49,905 nt of DNA from Thermoplasmata archaeon (lineage in GTDB: Archaea; Thermoplasmatota; Thermoplasmata; Lutacidiplasmatales; UBA184): positions 1-49,905 of the forward strand of contig JASHOK010000043.1 of assembly GCA_030041175.1 (NCBI GenBank), in the 5' to 3' direction. Within the stretch, counting starts at the first letter, position 1, and each line of letters begins with the position of its first letter. Both the position numbers and the translations under genes were made by a program. Under the pieces are notes generated by a model. It saw nothing but the letters and a program-made list of their open reading frames with translations. It searched no databases and was not told the origin of the DNA. This document shows, one piece after another, positions 36,948 to 49,905 of the stretch.

Positions 36948-37775
36948 CTACCGGTTCCCGGGACGGCGTCCCTGGCGGCGCGCGCCCACGACCGTCCCCC
37001 ATATAAAGACGGCCAGCGCGAAGGCGGCGATCCCGACCCCGATGTCCAGGGATTCGTCCGGTGGTGCGCCGGCGATGTAGAACCGGACCGAGTACTGTTG
37101 GACGCCGCCGGTGAAGGTCACGAAGCCGTGCTCCTCCGCGAGCGACACGGACAGGGTATGCCATCCGGGAGCGAGACTCGCCGTCACGTAGTCGAAGCTG
37201 AACGCATGCGACGTTTCGGCCGAGAGCGTCGGAATGGATACCTGACCCACGGCGACGCCGTCGAGGGTCACGGTCATGTTGAAGGCATTGACCGTGGTCG
37301 TGCCGGAGTAGAGCGTGCCGGCGAGGACGTATGGCGCCACCACCCGGATCTGCGTCGTGATGTTCGCGGAGACGTTGGTGCCCGCATAGCTCGAGGTGAG
37401 CTCGACCCGGAGCGTGACGACCTCCACCAGGCTGGGGGCGGTGAATCGGAGGATCTCGGAGCCGTTGATCAGGACCCCGGTCGGCGGTTGGATCGATGCC
37501 GTCGAGACATTGTTTCCCGAGAGCGTTGCGTTGAACGTGATGTTGCCGACGAGCGTTCCGTTGGCCGCCTCGGCCGGTCCGCCGGTTCCGTTCACGACGT
37601 AGTCGGCCGTCAGCGATTCTCCCACGACGGCCGGGCCGGTGATCGTCCCGGTCACCGCCGGATAATCGGAGGCTCGCGCCATCCCGCCCGCCCCGAGGAC
37701 CAGGGCGGAAAGCACGAGCGCCAGGACGAGCCCCGAGCTCAGACCCCGAAGCGCCCACGGAGAACGACTAACCAT
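36948..37775 (-). CDS. Secreted, C-terminally membrane-anchored Ig/beta-sandwich-like protein
   Basis: N-terminal signal-like helix (LSSGLVLALVLSALVLGAGGMARA), Thr/Asn-rich extracellular part, C-terminal TM (IGVGIAAFALAVFIWGTVVGARRQGRR). Confidence 0.75.
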   Translation of the reverse strand: MVSRSPWALRGLSSGLVLALVLSALVLGAGGMARASDYPAVTGTITGPAVVGESLTADYVVNGTGGPAEAANGTLVGNITFNATLSGNNVSTASIQPPTGVLINGSEILRFTAPSLVEVVTLRVELTSSYAGTNVSANITTQIRVVAPYVLAGTLYSGTTTVNAFNMTVTLDGVAVGQVSIPTLSAETSHAFSFDYVTASLAPGWHTLSVSLAEEHGFVTFTGGVQQYSVRFYIAGAPPDESLDIGVGIAAFALAVFIWGTVVGARRQGRRPGNR

Positions 37776-37781
37776 CCGAGT

Positions 37782-40700
37782 TCACCTCCGCACCCATCGG
37801 CGGGTCCGCCACCAGCGGATCGTGAGCAGGATCGCGAGGAAGGCCACGGCGGGGATGATGGCGATCACGGTCCAGGCCCAGTCGGGCAGGACCGGCGGGG
37901 TGCCGACGTGAGGCCCCGAGACCGTGAGACCATTGGGGGCGCTCACGACCCCGGTCGGCACGGAAATGTCGGCGGATGCGACGGGGTTCCCCGTCGTGTT
38001 CACGGCCTGGGCCTGGACCACGACCGTGTCCGGCGGCATCGCAAATCCGGAGGTCGTCAGGGAGACCGAGAAGAGCAGGCTCTGTCCCGGCCCCAGACTC
38101 ACGGTGGCCGGGGCAGTCGCGGAATTCTCGAGCAGGGCGACGGTCCAACCGAGTTGCTCGAGCTGGACCTGGTTCACCACGCTCACCACCGCGCTGTAGG
38201 GCGTATTCCCCGTGTTGTCGACCGTGAACTGCACCGTGGCGGACCGGGGGGCCACGGTGGCGCCGGACGGATCCGCCGTCACCGAGATCGCCGGCACCGG
38301 GATGACGTTCACGACCGGCGACGGGGACGAGGTGCCGATCACGGTGTTCGGACTTGCGGCCAGCATCGCGCCGAGCGCAACCGGGGCGTGGTTCGTGGTC
38401 GCGCCGTAGGGCACGCGCACCACCACCGTTCCACCCCCGGTGGAGTTCCCCGGCCCGACGCCCAGCGTAATGGTCGCGGGGCTGAAGGTGAAGTTCCAAC
38501 TCGACGGGTCGCCGTAGAACCGGATCGTCACGGGAGTGTTCCCCGTGTTCGTCACCGTGAAGGAGAACGTTGCGATCCCGCCGGCCGGCACGGTCGCGGA
38601 GGCCGGAGGCAGCGTCGCGATCACCACCGACCGGGTGTAGGAGGGCACGAGCGCCAGGCTGGTCGCCTGGTTGCCGAGCAGTAACGAGACGGAGGCCGAC
38701 GCGGTCGTCGGCACCGATTGGCCCGCGATGAGGGCCGTCCCGTTACCTACCACGGTCCAAGTTCCCTGGGGAAGCACCCAACTGGTGGCCGTGCCGAGCC
38801 CGACGCCGACGGAGGTCCAGGACAGACCGGCCGAGCTCTTCCACGTCACGTTGCCGGTGGTCAGTGACGAGAGGCCCGACGGCGGAGTCAGTGTGAGCGT
38901 GTCGGTCCACGCCGGCGACAGCGGGATGCTCACGGCCACGGACGGGAACGGCACCGTGACCTGTACGAGCGCTGCATAGACCCCGGCGCCGGAGCCCGCG
39001 GTGGCGTACACCGTGTACACTCCTGGGAGAACGGCCGCCGAGAATGCGCCGTTCGTGGTCGTGACCGTGGTACTGTTCGTGGATGGATAGGGTCCCATCA
39101 GTCGGACGGTCGCGGAGATCGTCAGCGGTCCGCCATTCCAGTACAACTGGCCGGAGATGCCCGCGTTGTGGTACACCACGGTGAGCGGTATGGCGCAGGT
39201 GGAGGCGGACGTGCCGACGGAGCAGGTGGTCCCCGCGACGACGGTATACGTGGCGTACCGCAGCACGCCGCCCACGGTCGTTGCGAGAGTGACATTCACG
39301 TACGGCGTGTAGGTTGCCGGTCCCGGCAGGTTGAGAGCGACCGTCCCATTGGTCGAGAGGGAGTAGAGCTGTACTCCCGAGGGCCCGGTCCAGTACACGG
39401 GCACGGACAGTGGCAAGGTGCCCCCACCGGTGCCCACCAGCGTCGCCACTACGGGAACGCCCGACCCGAGCGTGACGGTCGGCGTCGTGACCCCGGTCGC
39501 GTTCACGGTGACGATCGTGAGCGTTGTGTAGTTGACGCCGCTGGCCGAGGCGGACCCGTAGACCGAGTACGATCCGGGCGATATTCGGTACCCGGACAGG
39601 AACGTCGAACCGGCGACGGTGAAGTTGAAGGGCGGCCCGTAGATGCGCAGCTGGACCGACGAGGCCGTCACACCGGCCGGCAACGACAGCTTGCCCGTCG
39701 CGGTCACCTGGCGGTAGAGCTGAACGCTCAGGTTGGTCGGACTGATACCTACCGGTAACGTGACGTTGATCGTTTCGGGCGGCTGTAAGACGCCGGTTCC
39801 GGATGCGGGCGGGGCCCACGCCGTGATCTGGTAGGGCCCGGGCGCAAGCGAGACGGAGAACGACGATCCGCCCGTAACGGTCAGGCTCTGGGCCGGTGGG
39901 CCGGTCGCGGTGGCGTTCAGCCGAAGCGTTCCGCCGGAGGGGAGGCCGGTCACGGTGACCTGGAGGGTGACGTTCAGCAGCGGCACGACGACCCGGGTCA
40001 GGCTCGTGAGCTCTCCCACGGAAAGGCTACAGGCCTGGTACGCGCCGAAGCCGGTCGCCGAGGCCGATAAACAGTAGGTCGTCGACGGCTGCGCCGTCGG
40101 CAACAGGAAGCTGATGTTGCCGTTCGCCGCGGTGAGCGTGCTCAAGGTAGCGCCCGTGGGATTGACCGTCAGGTGCACCTCGCCGGCCTGGACCGGATAG
40201 AAGGCTCCCGAGGGCACTAGCGCACCGAGCGTCGTGGCGAAGGTGTAGGCCTTGCTGAGCGGCAGAGAGATCGTCGTCGCCCGGTCGAGGTCGACGTAAC
40301 CGACGGCTGAGAAGTTGCCCACCGTTGGAGCGACCTGGGTGGCGAGCGCCTGCACGCTGTAGTCGCCGGCCGGTGCGTAGACGGACCAGGTTCCGCTGCT
40401 GTTGGCAAAGAACGTGAGCTCATTCCCCGACGACCCGTACAGGGAGATCTGGGTCGCACTGACCTCGCTGCTGAGGATACCCGAGGGCAGGGAGGACTGT
40501 CCGGAGAGGAGCACCGACGTCGACAGCTGGAGCGGAGCCACGGCGATGGCGGACCCGGTACTCGGGAGGTAGGCGCTCTCAAAGCCGGCGAGGAACGTCG
40601 AGCCGACCGGCCCGTATCCGTAGATCGAGTAATTGCCGGCCGGGATCGTGGCGTGGACCGTGCCGGTGGCATCGCTCGTGAAGACCAGGGCGTCCGAGGG

Positions 40701-43700
40701 CCGGGGGGCCTGATTGGCCGACGAACCGACCGTCGAGCGAATCGGTGTCAGTCGGACGGTGAAACCGGGGACCGGCGCTCCGCCGGTCTCGACTTCGAAA
40801 CTGATCGAGACGACCGGAACCAGCGTCAGGGACTGCGTCAGGGTCCGGTTGGTCGTGGAGTTGAGCTCCACCGCCGTCGCATTGCTCGCCAGGTTGGCGC
40901 CGCTCGTAGCGCGAACGGAGAAGTTACCGGGCACCAGGTTCGAGAAGTCGTAGCCCCCGGAGGCGTTCGTGACCGTCGTCTCCGAGAACCCCGTGGCATT
41001 CGAGACCGTCACCGTCGCGCCCGGAACCAGGCTCCCAGACGCGAGAGAGACGGTTCCCTTGAGCTGGGACGGGACCAGTCCCGCCGTGGCATTGGCCGCG
41101 CCGCCCGCGGGCACGGCCACCTGGCCCACCGAGAAGGTAACGCCGGCGGTTCGGACCGTGTAGTTGTAGACCCCCGGCGCGACGTCCGTCAGCTGGAAGC
41201 TTCCATCGGCATCGGTCGTCGCCGTATAGTTTTGAAGGCCCGCGGCACTGAGCGTGACACTCGCGCCAACGGCCGGCGGGTCGACCGACGACATGTAGGT
41301 CTGGTTGCCGGTCGAGTTCCAGTAGACGAACCCGTTCACGGACCCCGGCTGAAGCACGATGTTCTGTGAGATCGGGACGCCCGTGAGGCTGAAGCCCAGG
41401 GCGGGCGCGACATACAGGTGAATCGAGTCGAGGAGCTCCGTGCCGTTCTGGTCGAGGCCCTGCAGGGTTCCGCTGGTCACGTTCAGCGTAACGTTCCCCG
41501 GCGGGAGGATGACGGAGTACGAGCCATCGGCGGAGGTCAGCACCGTCTGGTGGGGGATTCCCCAGCCGTCGTAGACGGTCAATCGGGCGCCGGCGACCGG
41601 GCTTCCGTTCGGCAGCGTCACGGTACCGGACAGCGGCTGACCCGGGTAGTACTCCAGGATCGCCTCTCCGCCGTTGAAGTAGCAGCTGGCGGCCAGGTTG
41701 GCCGTGCCGTTGGTCTTGGCGGCCATCGCTTCGGCATCGGGATAGTTGGTCGCGATGTCGCACGTGGAGGTCGAGGTCGTGGGCGTGGGCGAGTAGTAGG
41801 CCGTCTTGTAGGCCACTTCGAAGTGCTGGAGCATCCAGCCCGGCTCCGGAGTGTAGCTCGTGAGCGAGCCCTCCAGACCCGGGATCCCCGGGCTCAGGCC
41901 GATGTCGGTCCCGTTGTAGCCCATGTAGATCCGGTAGATCATCGAGTTGTAGAACGGGGCGAGCTGGTTCAGGACGTAGTTCACGACGGAAACGCCGGCC
42001 GGCACCTGGTCGACCGGGTAGAGGTTCCCGTCCGAGCCCTCGGCCTCGATCGTGTAGTAGGTGGTCGGCGCGCCGTCCGCCCCGATGACGCGGCCGGTCA
42101 GCTCGGCCGGCGCGTAGTAGATTCCCGTGTCGGTGCCCGTGAACGGGTAAAGTCGGTCGTCGACCATGGCGTAGCGGATCGTCCACCCCGTGTACGATTG
42201 GATGTCGTTGTAGACCTCGGCCACGCCGTTCTCGTTCAGCGTGTTCGCGAGGAACCAGCTGACCGCGTCGTACATGGCGTTCGTCGGCGTGAGCGTGCTC
42301 GCGTCCACAGGCAGGTACCGCTCGGGGTGGTTCACGACGAGCGTCACGTCCGCCGACGTGTTGGCCAGGAGGGTGTGGAGCTCGCCCAGGTTGACGCCGT
42401 CCGAGGCGAGGATGGTGTTCAGTTGCGGAGGCAGATACGCCAGACCCGATGCCTGCTGCTCGGCGGCGAGCAGGGTGGTGGCGAGGACGGCGATCGCGAG
42501 GGACTCGTTCTGGGCTAGCAGGAAATTCCCGGCGGCCGGGATGCCGTTCTGGAAATTGTCGGCGACCGAGGGATGCTGGCCTTCTGCGATCGCCTGGAAG
42601 CCGTAGTCCCACCAACTGATGAAGGCGGGACGGGAGGCGTAGGCCAGATTGGTATCTTGCGTCGCGAGCCAGTTGTACCCGGCTTCGTCATACTGGTTCG
42701 GAGTGTCGAGGTCGATCCCCGAGGCCCCGAGATAGAAGCTGGACGCGTTGCTCGAGTTGGTCTGGAGGAAGGACGGCAGGGTGTCGTAGACCTGGGTGCT
42801 GTAGCCGGCCTTGGTGTTGTACGGAATCCCGCCATCGATGGAGTACCAGACATTGGGCACGACCAAGGCGACGACGAGCAGCATCACGAGCACATGCCGG
42901 GCCTTGAACGACCGCCGGAATGCCGTCAGCGTCCCCCGGCTGCCGGCCAGCGACTCGGTGGACCGCCGGAGTTGCGAGTACCCGGCCACATCGAGGATGA
43001 TCAGGAGCGCCTCGGCGGGAAGCAGTGCGAAGGCCGGGGAGCCGACGTAGAAGAATTTGGACGCCGAAATCGGCAGAAAGATGCTGACGATCGCAAAGAC
43101 GACGAAGAGCGTGTGCTCCCGTCGGAACCTCTCGCGAGCGAGCTTCAGCACGAACAGTGCGAGTCCGACAAAGGCGAGGAAGAAGGTCAGGACGCCGTAC
43201 GAGATGATCAGCGCGTCAAAGGAGGGCGCCTGTGCCTCCGCGACGGTGGAATAGATCAGGGTCTTGGCAAAGTAGCCCTGCCCGGTGATCAACGTCTGGA
43301 ACGACGCGGGTGCAAGGAAGTCGACGATGCCCAGGCCGGCCACGACCACTCCGGCGAGGACGGGGACGGTGACGACCCACGGATATTGCCGAAGCAGGAC
43401 GAACGGCAGCAGCGCAATGAGCGCTCCGAAGTAAATGAGCAACGGAAGGTCGAACCAGGTGGCGAAGAGACCCTGGCCCAGATAGTACGGCACGGCCATC
43501 GGGAAGCCGATGATGCCCGCGATCCAGGTCACGACGTAGAGATTGACGGAATCCACGCGCCGGATCCGCTCGACCACCATGATGACAGCGAGGAAGATGA
43601 TCACAATCGCAACGGCGAGCGGGTAGCCCTGCCACGCCAGCGCGAGGGCTCCCAGGGACACCCCGGAGAAGACCGCCCACTTGACGGCCTTCTGCTCCTG

Positions 43701-44345
43701 TCGGAGGATCTGCCGGAGCCCGGCCAGGACCTCCCGCGGATGTCGGAACGACTGAATGTAGGTCTTGGTGCTGACGGCCTTCGCCGTTCGCAGGTAGGCG
43801 TAGAAGTAGATCAGGATGAAAAAAGTGTAAAATGTGAGGTAGTTGGCGTAGCCCAGGTCGGCGGCCTGGATGCTGCCGACGACCCAAGGATAGGTCAGCG
43901 CAGCGACCATACCCATCCGCTTGGAGCTGATCTCCTTCCCGATGAGGTAGATCGGGAACACCGTCAGGGCGGACCAGAGTGGTGAGTCGAGGTTCAGGAT
44001 GAACGCCGCGGCGTTCGTCGCGTTCCCGCCGAAGATCGGGGCGAACAGGAGGCCGAGAATCGCGTTCATCCAGTCGAACAGCGGTTCCCGGGGGTTGAGC
44101 GCCCCGAGCGGGTACTTGAGCAGCGGGTCGTGGATCAGGTTCCGATGATTGGTAAGGATGAACTCGGTGACTCTCCAGTGGTAGTACGAGTCCGAGCCGC
44201 CTCCGTAGACGTACAGCCAGCCATACTGTTCGAAGACGCTGAGCGTGAAAATCGTGCGTACCAGGAATGCGAGCCCGAACGCGGCGAGCAGCAGGGTGGT
44301 GGTCCAGCCATACCGGCTCCACCAACTGCCTGATTCCGAATCCAT
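37782..44345 (-). CDS. aglB: AglB/STT3-family oligosaccharyltransferase with giant extracellular C-terminal extension (2187 aa)
   Basis: N-terminal polytopic domain (YVYGGGSDSYYHWRVTEF), catalytic ISWWDYGFQAIAEGQHPSVADN motif; from about aa 900, repeated carboxypeptidase-regulatory-like beta domains (LSGTVTLPNGSPVAGARLTVYDGWG...), late CARDB/NEW3-like domains, C-terminal TM. Confidence 0.88.
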   Translation of the reverse strand: MDSESGSWWSRYGWTTTLLLAAFGLAFLVRTIFTLSVFEQYGWLYVYGGGSDSYYHWRVTEFILTNHRNLIHDPLLKYPLGALNPREPLFDWMNAILGLLFAPIFGGNATNAAAFILNLDSPLWSALTVFPIYLIGKEISSKRMGMVAALTYPWVVGSIQAADLGYANYLTFYTFFILIYFYAYLRTAKAVSTKTYIQSFRHPREVLAGLRQILRQEQKAVKWAVFSGVSLGALALAWQGYPLAVAIVIIFLAVIMVVERIRRVDSVNLYVVTWIAGIIGFPMAVPYYLGQGLFATWFDLPLLIYFGALIALLPFVLLRQYPWVVTVPVLAGVVVAGLGIVDFLAPASFQTLITGQGYFAKTLIYSTVAEAQAPSFDALIISYGVLTFFLAFVGLALFVLKLARERFRREHTLFVVFAIVSIFLPISASKFFYVGSPAFALLPAEALLIILDVAGYSQLRRSTESLAGSRGTLTAFRRSFKARHVLVMLLVVALVVPNVWYSIDGGIPYNTKAGYSTQVYDTLPSFLQTNSSNASSFYLGASGIDLDTPNQYDEAGYNWLATQDTNLAYASRPAFISWWDYGFQAIAEGQHPSVADNFQNGIPAAGNFLLAQNESLAIAVLATTLLAAEQQASGLAYLPPQLNTILASDGVNLGELHTLLANTSADVTLVVNHPERYLPVDASTLTPTNAMYDAVSWFLANTLNENGVAEVYNDIQSYTGWTIRYAMVDDRLYPFTGTDTGIYYAPAELTGRVIGADGAPTTYYTIEAEGSDGNLYPVDQVPAGVSVVNYVLNQLAPFYNSMIYRIYMGYNGTDIGLSPGIPGLEGSLTSYTPEPGWMLQHFEVAYKTAYYSPTPTTSTSTCDIATNYPDAEAMAAKTNGTANLAASCYFNGGEAILEYYPGQPLSGTVTLPNGSPVAGARLTVYDGWGIPHQTVLTSADGSYSVILPPGNVTLNVTSGTLQGLDQNGTELLDSIHLYVAPALGFSLTGVPISQNIVLQPGSVNGFVYWNSTGNQTYMSSVDPPAVGASVTLSAAGLQNYTATTDADGSFQLTDVAPGVYNYTVRTAGVTFSVGQVAVPAGGAANATAGLVPSQLKGTVSLASGSLVPGATVTVSNATGFSETTVTNASGGYDFSNLVPGNFSVRATSGANLASNATAVELNSTTNRTLTQSLTLVPVVSISFEVETGGAPVPGFTVRLTPIRSTVGSSANQAPRPSDALVFTSDATGTVHATIPAGNYSIYGYGPVGSTFLAGFESAYLPSTGSAIAVAPLQLSTSVLLSGQSSLPSGILSSEVSATQISLYGSSGNELTFFANSSGTWSVYAPAGDYSVQALATQVAPTVGNFSAVGYVDLDRATTISLPLSKAYTFATTLGALVPSGAFYPVQAGEVHLTVNPTGATLSTLTAANGNISFLLPTAQPSTTYCLSASATGFGAYQACSLSVGELTSLTRVVVPLLNVTLQVTVTGLPSGGTLRLNATATGPPAQSLTVTGGSSFSVSLAPGPYQITAWAPPASGTGVLQPPETINVTLPVGISPTNLSVQLYRQVTATGKLSLPAGVTASSVQLRIYGPPFNFTVAGSTFLSGYRISPGSYSVYGSASASGVNYTTLTIVTVNATGVTTPTVTLGSGVPVVATLVGTGGGTLPLSVPVYWTGPSGVQLYSLSTNGTVALNLPGPATYTPYVNVTLATTVGGVLRYATYTVVAGTTCSVGTSASTCAIPLTVVYHNAGISGQLYWNGGPLTISATVRLMGPYPSTNSTTVTTTNGAFSAAVLPGVYTVYATAGSGAGVYAALVQVTVPFPSVAVSIPLSPAWTDTLTLTPPSGLSSLTTGNVTWKSSAGLSWTSVGVGLGTATSWVLPQGTWTVVGNGTALIAGQSVPTTASASVSLLLGNQATSLALVPSYTRSVVIATLPPASATVPAGGIATFSFTVTNTGNTPVTIRFYGDPSSWNFTFSPATITLGVGPGNSTGGGTVVVRVPYGATTNHAPVALGAMLAASPNTVIGTSSPSPVVNVIPVPAISVTADPSGATVAPRSATVQFTVDNTGNTPYSAVVSVVNQVQLEQLGWTVALLENSATAPATVSLGPGQSLLFSVSLTTSGFAMPPDTVVVQAQAVNTTGNPVASADISVPTGVVSAPNGLTVSGPHVGTPPVLPDWAWTVIAIIPAVAFLAILLTIRWWRTRRWVRR

Positions 44346-44991: not shown

Positions 44992-46173
44992 CTAGCCCCC
45001 TCGCTCGTAGACCATCAGGGAATGCACGTTCGCGCTTCCGCTCAGGTTGTGCACCATCGCCCATTCGGGATCCGGAACCTGACGAGCCGGGTCCACCCGA
45101 TGCGCGAACTGGTCGCTGACCTCGACCGCCTGGGCGATACCGGTGGCGCCGAGCGGATGACCGCAGCCCAGGAGACCGCCCCGAGGGTTCACGACGACGT
45201 CGCCCCCGAGCCCCGATCGGCCATCGGCGGCGAACTGTCCACCCTCCCCCGGCCCACAGAAACCGATCGCCTCGTACTCGATGACCTCGGAGATGGAGAA
45301 GCAGTCGTGCAGTTCGGCGAGGTCCACGTCCCCCGGTCCGATGCCCGCGGACCGAAACGCTTCCCGGGAGGCCCGGGTCAGGCCCGTCCAGTCGGTCAGT
45401 GAGGCCATGTTCGCGAGGTTGTGGAAATCCGCGTACTGCCCCGAGCCCCGGATCCACGCGGGCACATCCGTAAACTCCCGAACGCGCTCCTCGGCGGCGA
45501 GAACGACCGCCCCCGCCCCATCGGTCATCGACGAGCAGTCTCCCAGCCGAAGGGGGGGAGCGACCATCGGCAACCGGAGCAGCTTCTCGCGGTCGAACCT
45601 CTTCTCGTAGAACTGGGCCACGGGATTGGCGTTGGCGAACCGGTGGTTCTTCTCCGAAACCGCGGCGAGCTGCTCTTCCGTGGTCCCGTGCTCAAGCATG
45701 TGCCGCTGAGCGACCATGGCGAAGAACGGAGGGGCGGTCAGCCCATGCGCGGCGTCCCACGGACGGTCCAATACGCAGGCCATTGCCGAGTTGGCCTCGG
45801 CCATGTCCGGCAGATTCATCTTCTCCACACCCACGGCCACGGCCACATCCGAAAGACCCGCGCGGATCGCCGCGTAGGCGCTGCGGATGGCCGACTGCCC
45901 GGAGGCGCAGGCCAGCTCGTTCCGCTGAACGATCCGGTGCGGCGCGAGTCCCATCTGTTCGGCGACCAGCGGGGCCACATGGGACTGGAACGCAAAGCGC
46001 TCGGGTTCCGCCGCTCCGACGAAGAGGCTGTCGACATCGGCGGCGCGGAGATTCGGTACGCTCCGAAACAGCACTTCGCCGGCCTCTTGGGCCAGTTCGG
46101 CCCAGGTGACCCCCCGGACGCCGAACTTCGTGAGTCCGCCACCGACGACCGCCACCTCGCGGGAGCCGCTCAC
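44992..46173 (-). CDS. Thiolase-superfamily protein (acetyl-CoA acetyltransferase-like)
   Basis: ACASGQSAIRSAYAAIRAG, LHDCFSISEVIEYEAIG, NPRGGLLGCGHPLGATGIAQAVE; GTG start. Confidence 0.9.
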   Translation of the reverse strand: MSGSREVAVVGGGLTKFGVRGVTWAELAQEAGEVLFRSVPNLRAADVDSLFVGAAEPERFAFQSHVAPLVAEQMGLAPHRIVQRNELACASGQSAIRSAYAAIRAGLSDVAVAVGVEKMNLPDMAEANSAMACVLDRPWDAAHGLTAPPFFAMVAQRHMLEHGTTEEQLAAVSEKNHRFANANPVAQFYEKRFDREKLLRLPMVAPPLRLGDCSSMTDGAGAVVLAAEERVREFTDVPAWIRGSGQYADFHNLANMASLTDWTGLTRASREAFRSAGIGPGDVDLAELHDCFSISEVIEYEAIGFCGPGEGGQFAADGRSGLGGDVVVNPRGGLLGCGHPLGATGIAQAVEVSDQFAHRVDPARQVPDPEWAMVHNLSGSANVHSLMVYERGG

Positions 46174-47306
46174 GGTCGATCCCCCGATCGGATCGCCGCT
46201 GCGACCCGTTCGCCGGCCTCGGACGTCGTGACGGTTCCGCCCTGGTCGTACGTGCGGGCACTTCCGTCTCCGAGCACTCGGCGGACCGCTCCCTCGAGAC
46301 GGTCGGCCTGGAGAGTCATCCGGGAATCGCTCCGCTGCTCTCCGAGCCACCGGAGCATCATCTCGATGGCGGAGAAGGTGGCGAACGGGTTGATCTCGTT
46401 CTTCCCCGCATGCTTGGGCGACGAGCCATGGACGGGCTCGAACATCGCATGCTGGGCACCGATGTTGCCTCCCGCCGCGAACCCCATTCCGCCCTGAAGT
46501 ACCGCGGCCAAATCTGTGACGATATCGCCGAACATGTTGGTCGTGACGACCACATCGTAGTGTTCCGGGTTCCGGACCATCCACTGGGTAAAGGCATCGA
46601 CGTAGGCGTACTCGCGTTCGACCTCCGGAAAGTCCGCTCCGACCTCCTCGAAGACCTCGCGGAAGAACTGGCATCCGCGGAGCACGTTCGCCTTGTCGAC
46701 ACAGGTGACCCGCCTCCGGTGGTCCTCGGGAGCCCCACGACCCCGTCGCTTCGAGAGATCGAAGGCGTACCGAATCACTCGCTCGGCACCTCGCCGGGTG
46801 ATCACTCGTGTGTCAATCGCCACTTCGGTCTGACCGCCCCGGTTCAGTGCCCCGCGAATCGGCGTGTACAGGCCCTCGGTATTCTCCCGGATGATCACGA
46901 AGTCGACGTTCTGCGGCGTCCAGACCTGCTTCCACTCCCCGCTGACCCGGTGCCGGACTCCGGGATAGAGGCGGCAGGGGCGCACGTTGGCGAAGAGGTC
47001 GAGTCCGAAGCGGAGACCAAAGATCAGTCCCGCTCCGGCAATGTCCCCGTTCGGCAGGGACACCCCGGGCCATCCGACCGCGCCCAGGAGCACCGCATCG
47101 GACGACCGGGCCGCCGCCTCGGCGCCGGGCGACCACTCGTGTCCGTGGTCGCGGAAGTAGGTCGCCCCGGCCTCGTACTCCTCCAGCGACCAGGGCGCAG
47201 CTTCGCCCTCGGCGAGCGCCTCCAGAACCCGACGGCCGGCTCGGATGACTTCCGGACCGGTCCCATCGCCGGGGAGCACCGCGATCCGATACGTGGCGTC
47301 CTTCAT
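46170..47306 (-). CDS. Isocitrate/isopropylmalate/homoisocitrate dehydrogenase family protein
   Basis: LPGDGTGPEVIRAGRRVLEAL, VIIRENTEGLYTPIRG, VVTTNMFGDIVTDLAAVLQGGMGFA. Confidence 0.9.
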   Translation of the reverse strand: MKDATYRIAVLPGDGTGPEVIRAGRRVLEALAEGEAAPWSLEEYEAGATYFRDHGHEWSPGAEAAARSSDAVLLGAVGWPGVSLPNGDIAGAGLIFGLRFGLDLFANVRPCRLYPGVRHRVSGEWKQVWTPQNVDFVIIRENTEGLYTPIRGALNRGGQTEVAIDTRVITRRGAERVIRYAFDLSKRRGRGAPEDHRRRVTCVDKANVLRGCQFFREVFEEVGADFPEVEREYAYVDAFTQWMVRNPEHYDVVVTTNMFGDIVTDLAAVLQGGMGFAAGGNIGAQHAMFEPVHGSSPKHAGKNEINPFATFSAIEMMLRWLGEQRSDSRMTLQADRLEGAVRRVLGDGSARTYDQGGTVTTSEAGERVAAAIRSGDRP

Positions 47307-47824
47307 CGAACGGGACCCGCCGTGCCCGTTGCCAGCTCGCGCTTCACCTTCTCGACGAGGCCACCGGCCTCGAGTAACTCGAGCAGATGCGAAGGAAGGG
47401 GCGGAAAGCTCACCGCAGCACCCGTCCGCGTATTCGAGACCCGACCGGCCTTCATCTCGATCCGGGCGGTATCGCCCGCTTCGAAGAGGGCGCGGACGCC
47501 CGGCGCCTCGATGGTCGGGATCCCGACGTTGATGGCGTTGCGGAAGAAGATGCGGGCAAAACTATCCGCAACGACCGCGCCGACCCCCATCGCCTTCAGG
47601 GCCTGGGGCGCGTGCTCCCGACTCGAGCCGCAACCGAGGTTGACCCCGGCCACGACAATGTCGCCCGGATGTGCGTTCGCAGCGAATTCGGGGAGCGCGA
47701 TCTCAAAGACGTGTTTCTTGAGCTCGTTGGGATCGATGACCGTGAGGTACTTTCCGCTGATGATCTGGTCGGTGTCGACGTCGTCCGGTAGCGTCCAGAC
47801 CCGGCCCTCGATGAGGTCCTGCAC
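47303..47824 (-). CDS. leuD: 3-isopropylmalate dehydratase/homoaconitase small subunit
   Basis: DDVDTDQIISGKYLT, NLGCGSSREHAPQALKAMGVGAVVADSFARIFFRNAINVG; GTG start. Confidence 0.92.
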   Translation of the reverse strand: MQDLIEGRVWTLPDDVDTDQIISGKYLTVIDPNELKKHVFEIALPEFAANAHPGDIVVAGVNLGCGSSREHAPQALKAMGVGAVVADSFARIFFRNAINVGIPTIEAPGVRALFEAGDTARIEMKAGRVSNTRTGAAVSFPPLPSHLLELLEAGGLVEKVKRELATGTAGPVR

Positions 47825-47832
47825 GGCCGCTC

Positions 47833-49119
47833 CTAGAGGAACTCCCGAGGATCGGCCAGCTCTCCGCGAATGGCCGCCGCCACGGTGGCCGCCGGCGACA
47901 GCAGATAGATCTCCGCGTTCTTGGCCCCCATCCGGCCGGGGAAATTGCGGTTCGACGAGGAGGCACAGACCTCGCCCGGCGCGAGGATTCCCATGTTGCC
48001 GCCGAAGCACGCGGAGCAACTCGAGTTCGTGAACACCCCGCCCGCTTCCGTGAAGGTCTCGATGAGCCCCTCGTCGAGCGCCTGCCGGTAGATCGAGGTC
48101 GACGCGGGGGAAACGATGAACCGAACTCCGGGTGCGACCTTGTGACCCTTCAGGATGCGAGCGCCCTCCCGGAGGTCGTCGATGCGGGCGTTCGTACAGG
48201 AGCCGAGAAAGACCTGGTCGACCTTCACGTGCTTCGGCAGGACCTCGGCGAGCGGCCGCACGTTATCGGGAGAATAGGGGCAGGCGACCATCGGTCCCAG
48301 CTCGTCGACGTCGACGTCCACTACTCGCTCGTAGCGGGCGTCAAGGTCCGGGGAGAGGGGATGCATGGGGTGCTTCGCGATCTTCTCGAGGAAGGCGTAG
48401 GTCGTGGCGTCCGGCGCGATCATCCCGCACTTCGCACCCATCTCCGTTGTCATGTTGCACAGCGTGAACCGCTCGGACATGGTCATCCGCTCGATCGTGG
48501 GCCCCGAGAACTCGACCGCCTTGTACGTCGCCCCCGTGGTCTTGATCTCGCCCAAGATACGCAGGATGAGGTCCTTCGCGTAGACCCCCTTCCCAAGCGT
48601 CCCCCGGATCCGGACATGGATCGTGGGAGGAACCTTGAGCCAGAGCCGCCCGAGCGCCAGCACCGCCGCCATCTCGGTGGGCCCGATCCCGGCGGCGACG
48701 GCCCCCATCGCGCCGAGCATGTTGGTGTGCGAATCCGTGCCAACCGCGAGATCGCCCGGGACCACCCATCCGTGCTCCGCAAGGATCTGGTGGCAGATTC
48801 CGTGATTCCCTACATCGTAGAAGTGGGGCAGACCCTGTTCTTTCGCAAACTGACGAAGTATTCGGTGCAGGACCGCCGCGCCTTCCGTGGAGGCGGGCAC
48901 CCAGTGGTCGATCGCAATGACGACCCGGTCCGGGTCCCACACGCGCGAGGCGCCCATCTCATGGAACGGTTGGACCGTCTGCGCACCCTGTTCGTGCATC
49001 ATTGCGAGGTCGACTCGTCCGTCGATGATCTGTCCCGGCACGACCTCCTCGAGACCACCGGCTCGGGCGAGAATGCGCTCAGCCAGTGTCTGCCCGGCCC
49101 CGGACCCGTTCCCTGTCAC
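47833..49119 (-). CDS. leuC: 3-isopropylmalate dehydratase/homoaconitase large subunit
   Basis: GTDSHTNMLGAMGAVAAGIGPTEMAAVLALG, LGSCTNARIDDLREGARIL, NSSCSACFGGNMGILAPGE. Confidence 0.93.
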   Translation of the reverse strand: MTGNGSGAGQTLAERILARAGGLEEVVPGQIIDGRVDLAMMHEQGAQTVQPFHEMGASRVWDPDRVVIAIDHWVPASTEGAAVLHRILRQFAKEQGLPHFYDVGNHGICHQILAEHGWVVPGDLAVGTDSHTNMLGAMGAVAAGIGPTEMAAVLALGRLWLKVPPTIHVRIRGTLGKGVYAKDLILRILGEIKTTGATYKAVEFSGPTIERMTMSERFTLCNMTTEMGAKCGMIAPDATTYAFLEKIAKHPMHPLSPDLDARYERVVDVDVDELGPMVACPYSPDNVRPLAEVLPKHVKVDQVFLGSCTNARIDDLREGARILKGHKVAPGVRFIVSPASTSIYRQALDEGLIETFTEAGGVFTNSSCSACFGGNMGILAPGEVCASSSNRNFPGRMGAKNAEIYLLSPAATVAAAIRGELADPREFL

Positions 49120-49905
49120 GATGCCTTCGCCCCCAATCCCATCTCATCCACGAGCTTCCAGAAATCCGCATCGGACATCCCGGGCTGCTCGAAGAGCATA
49201 CGGTACTCCTGGAGAAACGCCTCGAGCTCGCTCTTCGAGCGCTTCTCCGCGCTGGCCTTGAGCCGCTGCAAGAGGTCGACCAGCACCGGGTCGGGGAGCT
49301 CCATTCCACGTTCCTTGAGCTTCTCGACCAATGCGGCCTTTCCCGTGTGCTTTCCCAGGATCATCCGCCGCTGGCGCCCCACCACCTCCGGCTGCACCGG
49401 CTCATACGTCAGCGTGTGGGCGAGGATGCCGTGGGTATGGATGCCCGCCTCATGCGAGAAGGCGTTGTAGCCGACCACCGCCTTGGTGGCGGAGACGGGT
49501 ACCCCGGAGATCTGTTCGACCAATCGCGAGAGTTCGTAAATGCGGGACAGGTCGAGCCCGGTGTCGACCCCGTACACCTTCTCCAAGCAGAGAGCCAGCT
49601 CTTCGAGCGGCGTGTTGCCGGCCCGTTCCCCAAGTCCGTTGACGCAGACATGGGGGCTCGTGACTCCTTCCTCGAGCGCGGTGAGCGCGTTCGCAGTCGC
49701 CAGCCCAAAGTCATTGTGGCAGTGGACCGACCAGTCTGTCGGCGCTATCCTCCGGCGGAACTCGCGCAGATACCAGCGGAACGTCACGGGGGTCATGATT
49801 CCGACGGTGTCCGCAATCACGAGACGGTCCGCTCCGGCCTCCTTGACCGCGTTGTAGAGCCGCTCGACAAAGTCGAACGGCGCCCGGACGGTGTCCTCGG
49901 TCACG
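49116..49905 (-). CDS. Homocitrate/2-isopropylmalate/citramalate synthase family protein, N-terminus cut by window edge
   Basis: VIADTVGIMTPVTFRWYLREF, VHCHNDFGLATANALTALEEGV, VNGLGERAGNTPLEELAL. Confidence 0.9.
   Translation of the reverse strand, partial: VTEDTVRAPFDFVERLYNAVKEAGADRLVIADTVGIMTPVTFRWYLREFRRRIAPTDWSVHCHNDFGLATANALTALEEGVTSPHVCVNGLGERAGNTPLEELALCLEKVYGVDTGLDLSRIYELSRLVEQISGVPVSATKAVVGYNAFSHEAGIHTHGILAHTLTYEPVQPEVVGRQRRMILGKHTGKAALVEKLKERGMELPDPVLVDLLQRLKASAEKRSKSELEAFLQEYRMLFEQPGMSDADFWKLVDEMGLGAKAS

Follow-up and report, generated by a model that had tools for sequence, protein, structure and literature searches.

The DNA analysed here, referred to as the window, was a 49,905-nucleotide stretch of contig JASHOK010000043.1 from a Thermoplasmata archaeon (assembly GCA_030041175.1). 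Its minus strand carries the gene of a giant oligosaccharyltransferase (OST), followed by a small partner gene. The OST frame (37782-44345) was open and unbroken, began with ATG and comprised 2187 codons. The PF02516 STT3 family was matched with 46.8 bits in a genome search (cut-off 24.5) and with 39.1 bits in a second Pfam search, and the protein was the sole STT3 match in the genome (1.79 Mb, 98 contigs, 89% complete). An earlier reading made from the letters of the window only (the sequence-only reading) had proposed a single 2187-aa OST frame containing an STT3/AglB catalytic unit with a WWDYG motif, and both proposals were confirmed. A profile search against the Protein Data Bank (PDB) matched the N-terminal part to A. 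fulgidus AglB (E 7e-34). The AF2 model of aa 1-1000, built on 49 homologues, reached a mean pLDDT of 89 and a pTM of 0.86, and its top solved match in Foldseek was 7e9s, the AglB of A. fulgidus, with an E value of 7.5e-27 and, on the target, a TM-score of 0.67. The DXD1 metal motif was present as GGSD52 and the TIXE motif as TVAE (aa 367-370), with T367, E370 and WWDYG (aa 578-582) invariant in the alignment. The profile of the archaeosortase-A-associated OST subfamily, TIGR04154, aligned to aa 17-809 with 226.9 bits, below its curated cut-off of 450, and the protein was not assigned to that subfamily. By profile, fold and core motifs, the window protein is an AglB/STT3 OST, for which N-glycosyl transfer is predicted.

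Beyond the catalytic unit the frame continued into an extension from aa ~904 to 2187, that is 1284 aa, in agreement with the approximately 1285 aa estimated earlier. PF13620 (CarboxypepD_reg) was matched with an E value of 7.8e-34 and 116.3 bits (gathering cut-off 32.3), in stretches at 41466-41633, 41082-41276 and 40827-41066 and in weaker ones farther along. At least three such repeats had been anticipated, and a repeat profile counted 11 tandem units over aa 904-1910; the profile was derived from class sequences, but its build set contained neither the first unit nor most of the scored proteins. The two late beta domains of the sequence-only reading were recovered as well: choice_anch_T was matched at aa 1921-2076 (E 2e-9), and NTGNTP motifs lay at aa 1933 and 2044, the N and G of NTGN being nearly invariant. 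The single transmembrane (TM) helix and basic tail at the C-terminus were also found as described, and the helix was seen in all class representatives whose end was read. The AF2 model of the tail was all-beta with a pLDDT of 87. The sequence evidence describes an AglB-like catalytic unit followed by a predicted extracellular array of 11 prealbumin-like domains (PLD) and 2 NTGN-type beta domains, here called the rod, and a second membrane anchor.

The partner gene began 6 nt past the OST stop codon in the window. Its homologue was located directly after the OST gene in 30 of 30 class family representatives, and it was missing from only 3 class genomes when 223 genomes were searched. The best partner start overlapped the OST stop by 4 nt in 57 of 87 loci. 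This conserved overlap suggests translational coupling and, by extension, a complex, which makes the partner a candidate OST subunit. CARDB was recognized in 44 of 48 partner members; apart from it, the Pfam scan of these members returned only generic Ig-like families and matched no OST or TRAP accessory subunit family. Outside the class, the C-terminus of two OSTs (L189, aa 2497-2620; L198, aa 2631-2741) matched that half of the partner which holds CARDB and the TM helix, with E values of 2.5e-15 and 6.6e-8, respectively, which could be generic CARDB similarity. No separate partner gene was seen near these two OST genes, and a fusion of the partner into them is possible, although the match is only suggestive. 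The features of both genes are collected in Table 1.

Table 1. Features of the giant OST gene and its partner, in window coordinates.
Feature	Position	Strand	Evidence
Giant OST gene, 2187 aa (228 kDa)	37782..44345 (incl. stop codon)	-	Orthologues full length across class
Polytopic GT-C transmembrane region, aa 1-506, with DXD1 (GGSDS) and TIXE (TVAE)	42828..44345	-	AF2 model, Foldseek, motifs
Extracellular catalytic globular domain, aa 507-900	41646..42827	-	AF2, Foldseek, PDB profile match
WWDYG motif, aa 578-582	42600..42614	-	Invariant in alignment
11 consecutive PLD/CarboxypepD_reg-like beta domains, aa 904-1910	38616..41636	-	PF13620, repeat profile, all-beta AF2 model
Two NTGN-type (CARDB/NEW3-like) beta domains, aa 1911-2135	37941..38615	-	choice_anch_T, motif conservation, model strands
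C-terminal TM helix and basic cytosolic tail, aa 2155-2187	37785..37883	-	Hydropathy 2.55, AF2 helix
Partner, 275 aa: signal peptide, N-terminal beta domain, CARDB domain, C-terminal TM	36948..37775	-	Conserved OST neighbour

The distribution of the gene was followed across the wall-poor class Thermoplasmata. It was present, mostly at full length, in 40 of the 41 genomes of a relatives search (the window's own counted), and OST orthologues within the order were 31-86% identical. In a class sample of 400 genomes the STT3 match lay in frames of ~2050-2440 aa nearly wherever the gene was uncut. Closed chromosomes of 1,564,906, 1,584,804, 1,486,778, 1,488,669 and 1,938,699 bp carried the giant OST; we take them to be those of T. 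acidophilum, T. volcanium, A. boonei, Ca. Methanoplasma termitum and C. divulgatum, respectively. The last of them encoded an OST with intact motifs and a partner gene. All class OSTs formed one clade in the catalytic-domain tree (SH-aLRT 100), and the anchored forms clustered. On this comparison of sequences, the giant architecture is inherited vertically across the class, and the window protein is typical of it, not exceptional. Orthologues with the same fusion thus occurred throughout the class, and long tails, which the sequence-only reading would have taken as a refutation if routine in all relatives, proved routine within the class.

The length of the rod was found to be constrained. The distance from WWDYG to the C-terminus was 1617 +/- 9 aa (1599-1645) in the window's order (80 proteins) and 1473-1723 aa (mean 1570) in 28 class family representatives, and the eleven-unit register was found again by the repeat profile in many families. 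Sequence identity of the rod within the family was ~25-40%, compared with 50-65% for the enzyme part; that of the tail was ~30% in the window's order and about 20-35% across the class. A length and a domain count that stay fixed while the sequence drifts would fit a spacer or scaffold better than a binding surface. Neither this class-wide fixed-length architecture nor the coupled downstream gene had been noticed in the sequence-only reading. Elsewhere in the phylum, the shortest OST frames (~930-1000 aa) were without extra repeats, the next (~1030-1430 aa) had at most four and lacked a C-terminal TM helix, and the long ones (2340-2740 aa) were anchored. The largest frames, of 3100-3245 aa with a C-terminal TM helix (L185-L188, L208-L210), belonged to families f46 and f52, which are probably marine Poseidoniia. 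Three short OSTs of about 900-980 aa from other phylum families (L190, L193, L195) sat on a long separate branch and may stem from another AglB lineage or from gene acquisition. A separate rod gene was looked for beside the short OSTs of other families and none was seen.

The extension had been described as rich in N-glycosylation sequons, which was supported by the counts. The tail of the window OST (aa 901-2160) contained 34 sequons, 26 NxT and 8 NxS, when 13.6 were expected, and none of 2000 shuffles reached as many; the reversed motif [ST]xN occurred 19 times. The window partner contained 9 sequons compared with about 2.4 expected. When one protein per class family was taken, the observed-to-expected ratio was 2.0x for the tail, 3.0x for the partner and 1.01x for the TM region.

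A natural comparison was offered by family f8, probably Methanomethylophilaceae, in which DXD1, TIXE and WWDYG were lost in 8 of 9 proteins (L156, L157, L214, L219, L220, L222, L223, L226) and the rod, anchor and partner were retained. WWDYG was replaced, for example, by WFEYS, WIDYV or WFGNS. The degenerate proteins formed one clade of the catalytic-domain tree (SH-aLRT 100), and no second STT3 was found in the closed f8 chromosomes, where the degenerate gene was the sole STT3-like one. These proteins are apparent pseudo-OSTs, to judge from their motifs. Their sequon ratios were 1.22x in the tail and 1.02x in the partner. An enrichment that is extracellular, common to both proteins and lost or much reduced together with the catalytic motifs suggests, indirectly, that elsewhere the OST N-glycosylates both its rod and the partner. 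The auto-glycosylation raised by the sequence-only reading was supported to this indirect extent.

It was proposed, tentatively and at somewhat less than an even chance, that the self-glycosylated, doubly anchored OST ectodomain and its partner form a surface arch or scaffold, possibly as part of an exterior protein layer. Surface proteins, among them the rod and the partner, would receive a dolichol-linked glycan on their sequons from the catalytic unit, and the OST and partner would form a complex. Both ends of the rod are predicted to be membrane-bound, hence the chain must come back; since, in addition, the domain number is constant and the sequence drifts, the ectodomain may be a glycan-coated arch or spacer reaching roughly 20-25 nm off the membrane. 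At about 3.5-4 nm per domain, a folded-back chain of thirteen would reach a height of at most about 23-26 nm. In cells that have no crystalline S-layer, such an ectodomain would build or organise a portion of their exterior protein layer, and the active site would be kept in a sheltered zone beneath that layer. Thermoplasmatales have no crystalline S-layer, and cryo-tomography of C. divulgatum and O. meridianum revealed a dense, unordered exterior layer of ~20 nm, the component proteins of which are unassigned (PMC12448462). A glycosylated, double-anchored arch of comparable height, as predicted here and encoded with intact motifs and a partner in the genome that we take to be that of C. divulgatum, is a reasonable candidate for a component of this layer. 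To that extent, the OST tethered to, or forming, a surface layer that the sequence-only reading suggested is plausible. The structural role appears separable from catalysis, because one family lost the catalytic motifs and kept the rod, anchor and partner; the retention of the architecture after this loss favours a structural role. A further-reaching version, in which the two-protein OST with its giant self-glycosylated ectodomain would be a main component of a cell coat in place of an S-layer, and in which the f8 enzyme would be dead with the scaffold kept as a pseudo-OST, was considered unlikely.

Several observations weigh against the arch. Some lineages with intact motifs showed little or no sequon enrichment (L154 0.91, L158 0.60, L181 1.08, L177 1.18, L159 1.33). 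The degeneration in f8 was a single event, placed next to L158, the f8 member that keeps intact motifs at a ratio of 0.60, and its correlation with the enrichment is not independent. The tail model is locally confident, but at a pTM of 0.49 it does not fix the packing of the domains, and the height of 20-25 nm is our own estimate only. With one OST molecule per arch, a dense layer would need the OST at very high abundance. Finally, DXD2 of the window OST read N-Y-L (aa 162-170, about 43836-43862), as it did throughout the window's order (families f1-f3), compared with D-H-D in most class members; it also departed from DHD in families f19, f27 and f31. In the OST of the chromosome that we take to be that of T. 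acidophilum it read GRMH, and since the N-glycan of that species is known, the altered DXD2 was not used to exclude OST membership. The glycan was described by Vinogradov (2012), as cited in PMC12448462.

The first alternative is that the rod and partner handle substrates in the manner of NOMO or of accessory subunits of the translocon and OST in the eukaryotic endoplasmic reticulum (ER), catching, spacing or chaperoning acceptors that leave SecY for the fused OST. The best solved chain for the tail profile was human NOMO2 (9c7v, E 2e-38), followed by SdrD (1e-10), and NOMO_5th was recognized in 8 and the EMC7 beta-sandwich in 7 of 20 members. Rod and OST also share one chain, and in the partner a signal peptide is followed by beta domains and a TM helix. 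NOMO is likewise a PLD array within a translocon complex (PMC11186639). However, the NOMO alignment was not colinear, several NOMO repeats falling on the same query units, and NOMO was missing from the 50 best Foldseek matches of the tail; orthology to NOMO was rejected on these two grounds, and the kinship is at the superfamily level. The Pfam matches of the partner included no homologue of a known OST or TRAP subunit, and the catalysis-dead OSTs retain the rod. This explanation was judged rather improbable, although it is the main rival.

A second alternative, judged quite improbable, is that a surface protein or adhesin has been fused to the OST and shares its gene without any joint function, its repeats expanding and contracting as they do in other proteins of the cell surface. 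Adhesins often contain CarboxypepD_reg, SdrD_B and SpaA-type domains, and the frames across the phylum vary from about 930 to 3245 aa; within the class, however, length and repeat number are nearly fixed at about 20-35% identity, the OST-rod fusion is inherited and the partner always adjoins the OST, and in the window's genome 5 of the 6 CarboxypepD_reg matches sit in the OST gene. An assembly or annotation artefact joining an OST gene to a surface-protein gene, conceivable in a draft of 98 contigs, has next to no probability and was rejected, because the same frame was present in more than 100 other, independent assemblies across the class, including the closed chromosomes of 1,564,906, 1,584,804 and 1,938,699 bp.

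No paper describing the giant OST or its partner was found in the literature searched, which did not cover subscription journals, and both seem to be new to the literature. The usual view of an archaeal OST is that of a one-subunit enzyme shorter than 1000 aa. Throughout a whole class, cultured species included, the OST is more than twice that size, its rod has a fixed length and ends in a second anchor, and a candidate subunit is coupled to it translationally. The giant OST would be a specific, testable candidate for the exterior protein layer of the S-layer-less Thermoplasmatales, and the family with lost catalytic motifs and kept architecture provides a natural control with the enzyme removed. 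PF00953 (GlcNAc-phosphotransferase), taken as a marker of the glycan pathway, was absent even from the genomes that we take to be Thermoplasma and was therefore uninformative. Upstream of the OST gene, the minus strand at 46170-49904 was read by eye as encoding an isopropylmalate/isocitrate dehydrogenase, small and large isomerase subunits and an isopropylmalate-synthase-like protein, probably an ordinary leucine-type pathway cluster.

Compared with known systems, the window OST resembles the S-layer or exterior layer proteins of Thermoplasmatales in being a large, glycosylation-prone, membrane-anchored and beta-rich surface protein; it matched no S-layer domain, and none of the tests identified it as an S-layer protein. 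With NOMO of the BOS complex in the ER multipass translocon, its closest solved chain by profile, it shares tandem prealbumin-like domains, and NOMO likewise stands beside a translocon. NOMO is nevertheless a protein of its own with no enzyme attached, it does not align colinearly with the tail, and its function is unrelated as far as known. In the multi-subunit eukaryotic OST, too, the catalytic STT3 is joined by further extracellular beta domains and TM anchors, which are here partly fused and partly encoded by the coupled gene; the partner showed no sequence match to the ribophorin, OST48 and TRAP families and has CARDB instead. The best structural and profile match remains AglB-L of A. fulgidus (PDB 7e9s/3waj), which shares the polytopic GT-C fold, the extracellular catalytic domain, DXD1, TIXE and WWDYG. 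Its motif DGGK reads DGGI in the window OST, and its DXD2 is D-H-H instead of N-Y-L. The PDB lists 875 aa for A. fulgidus AglB. The window OST has 2187 aa, among them 13 beta domains and a second anchor that AglB-L lacks, and it has a coupled partner besides.

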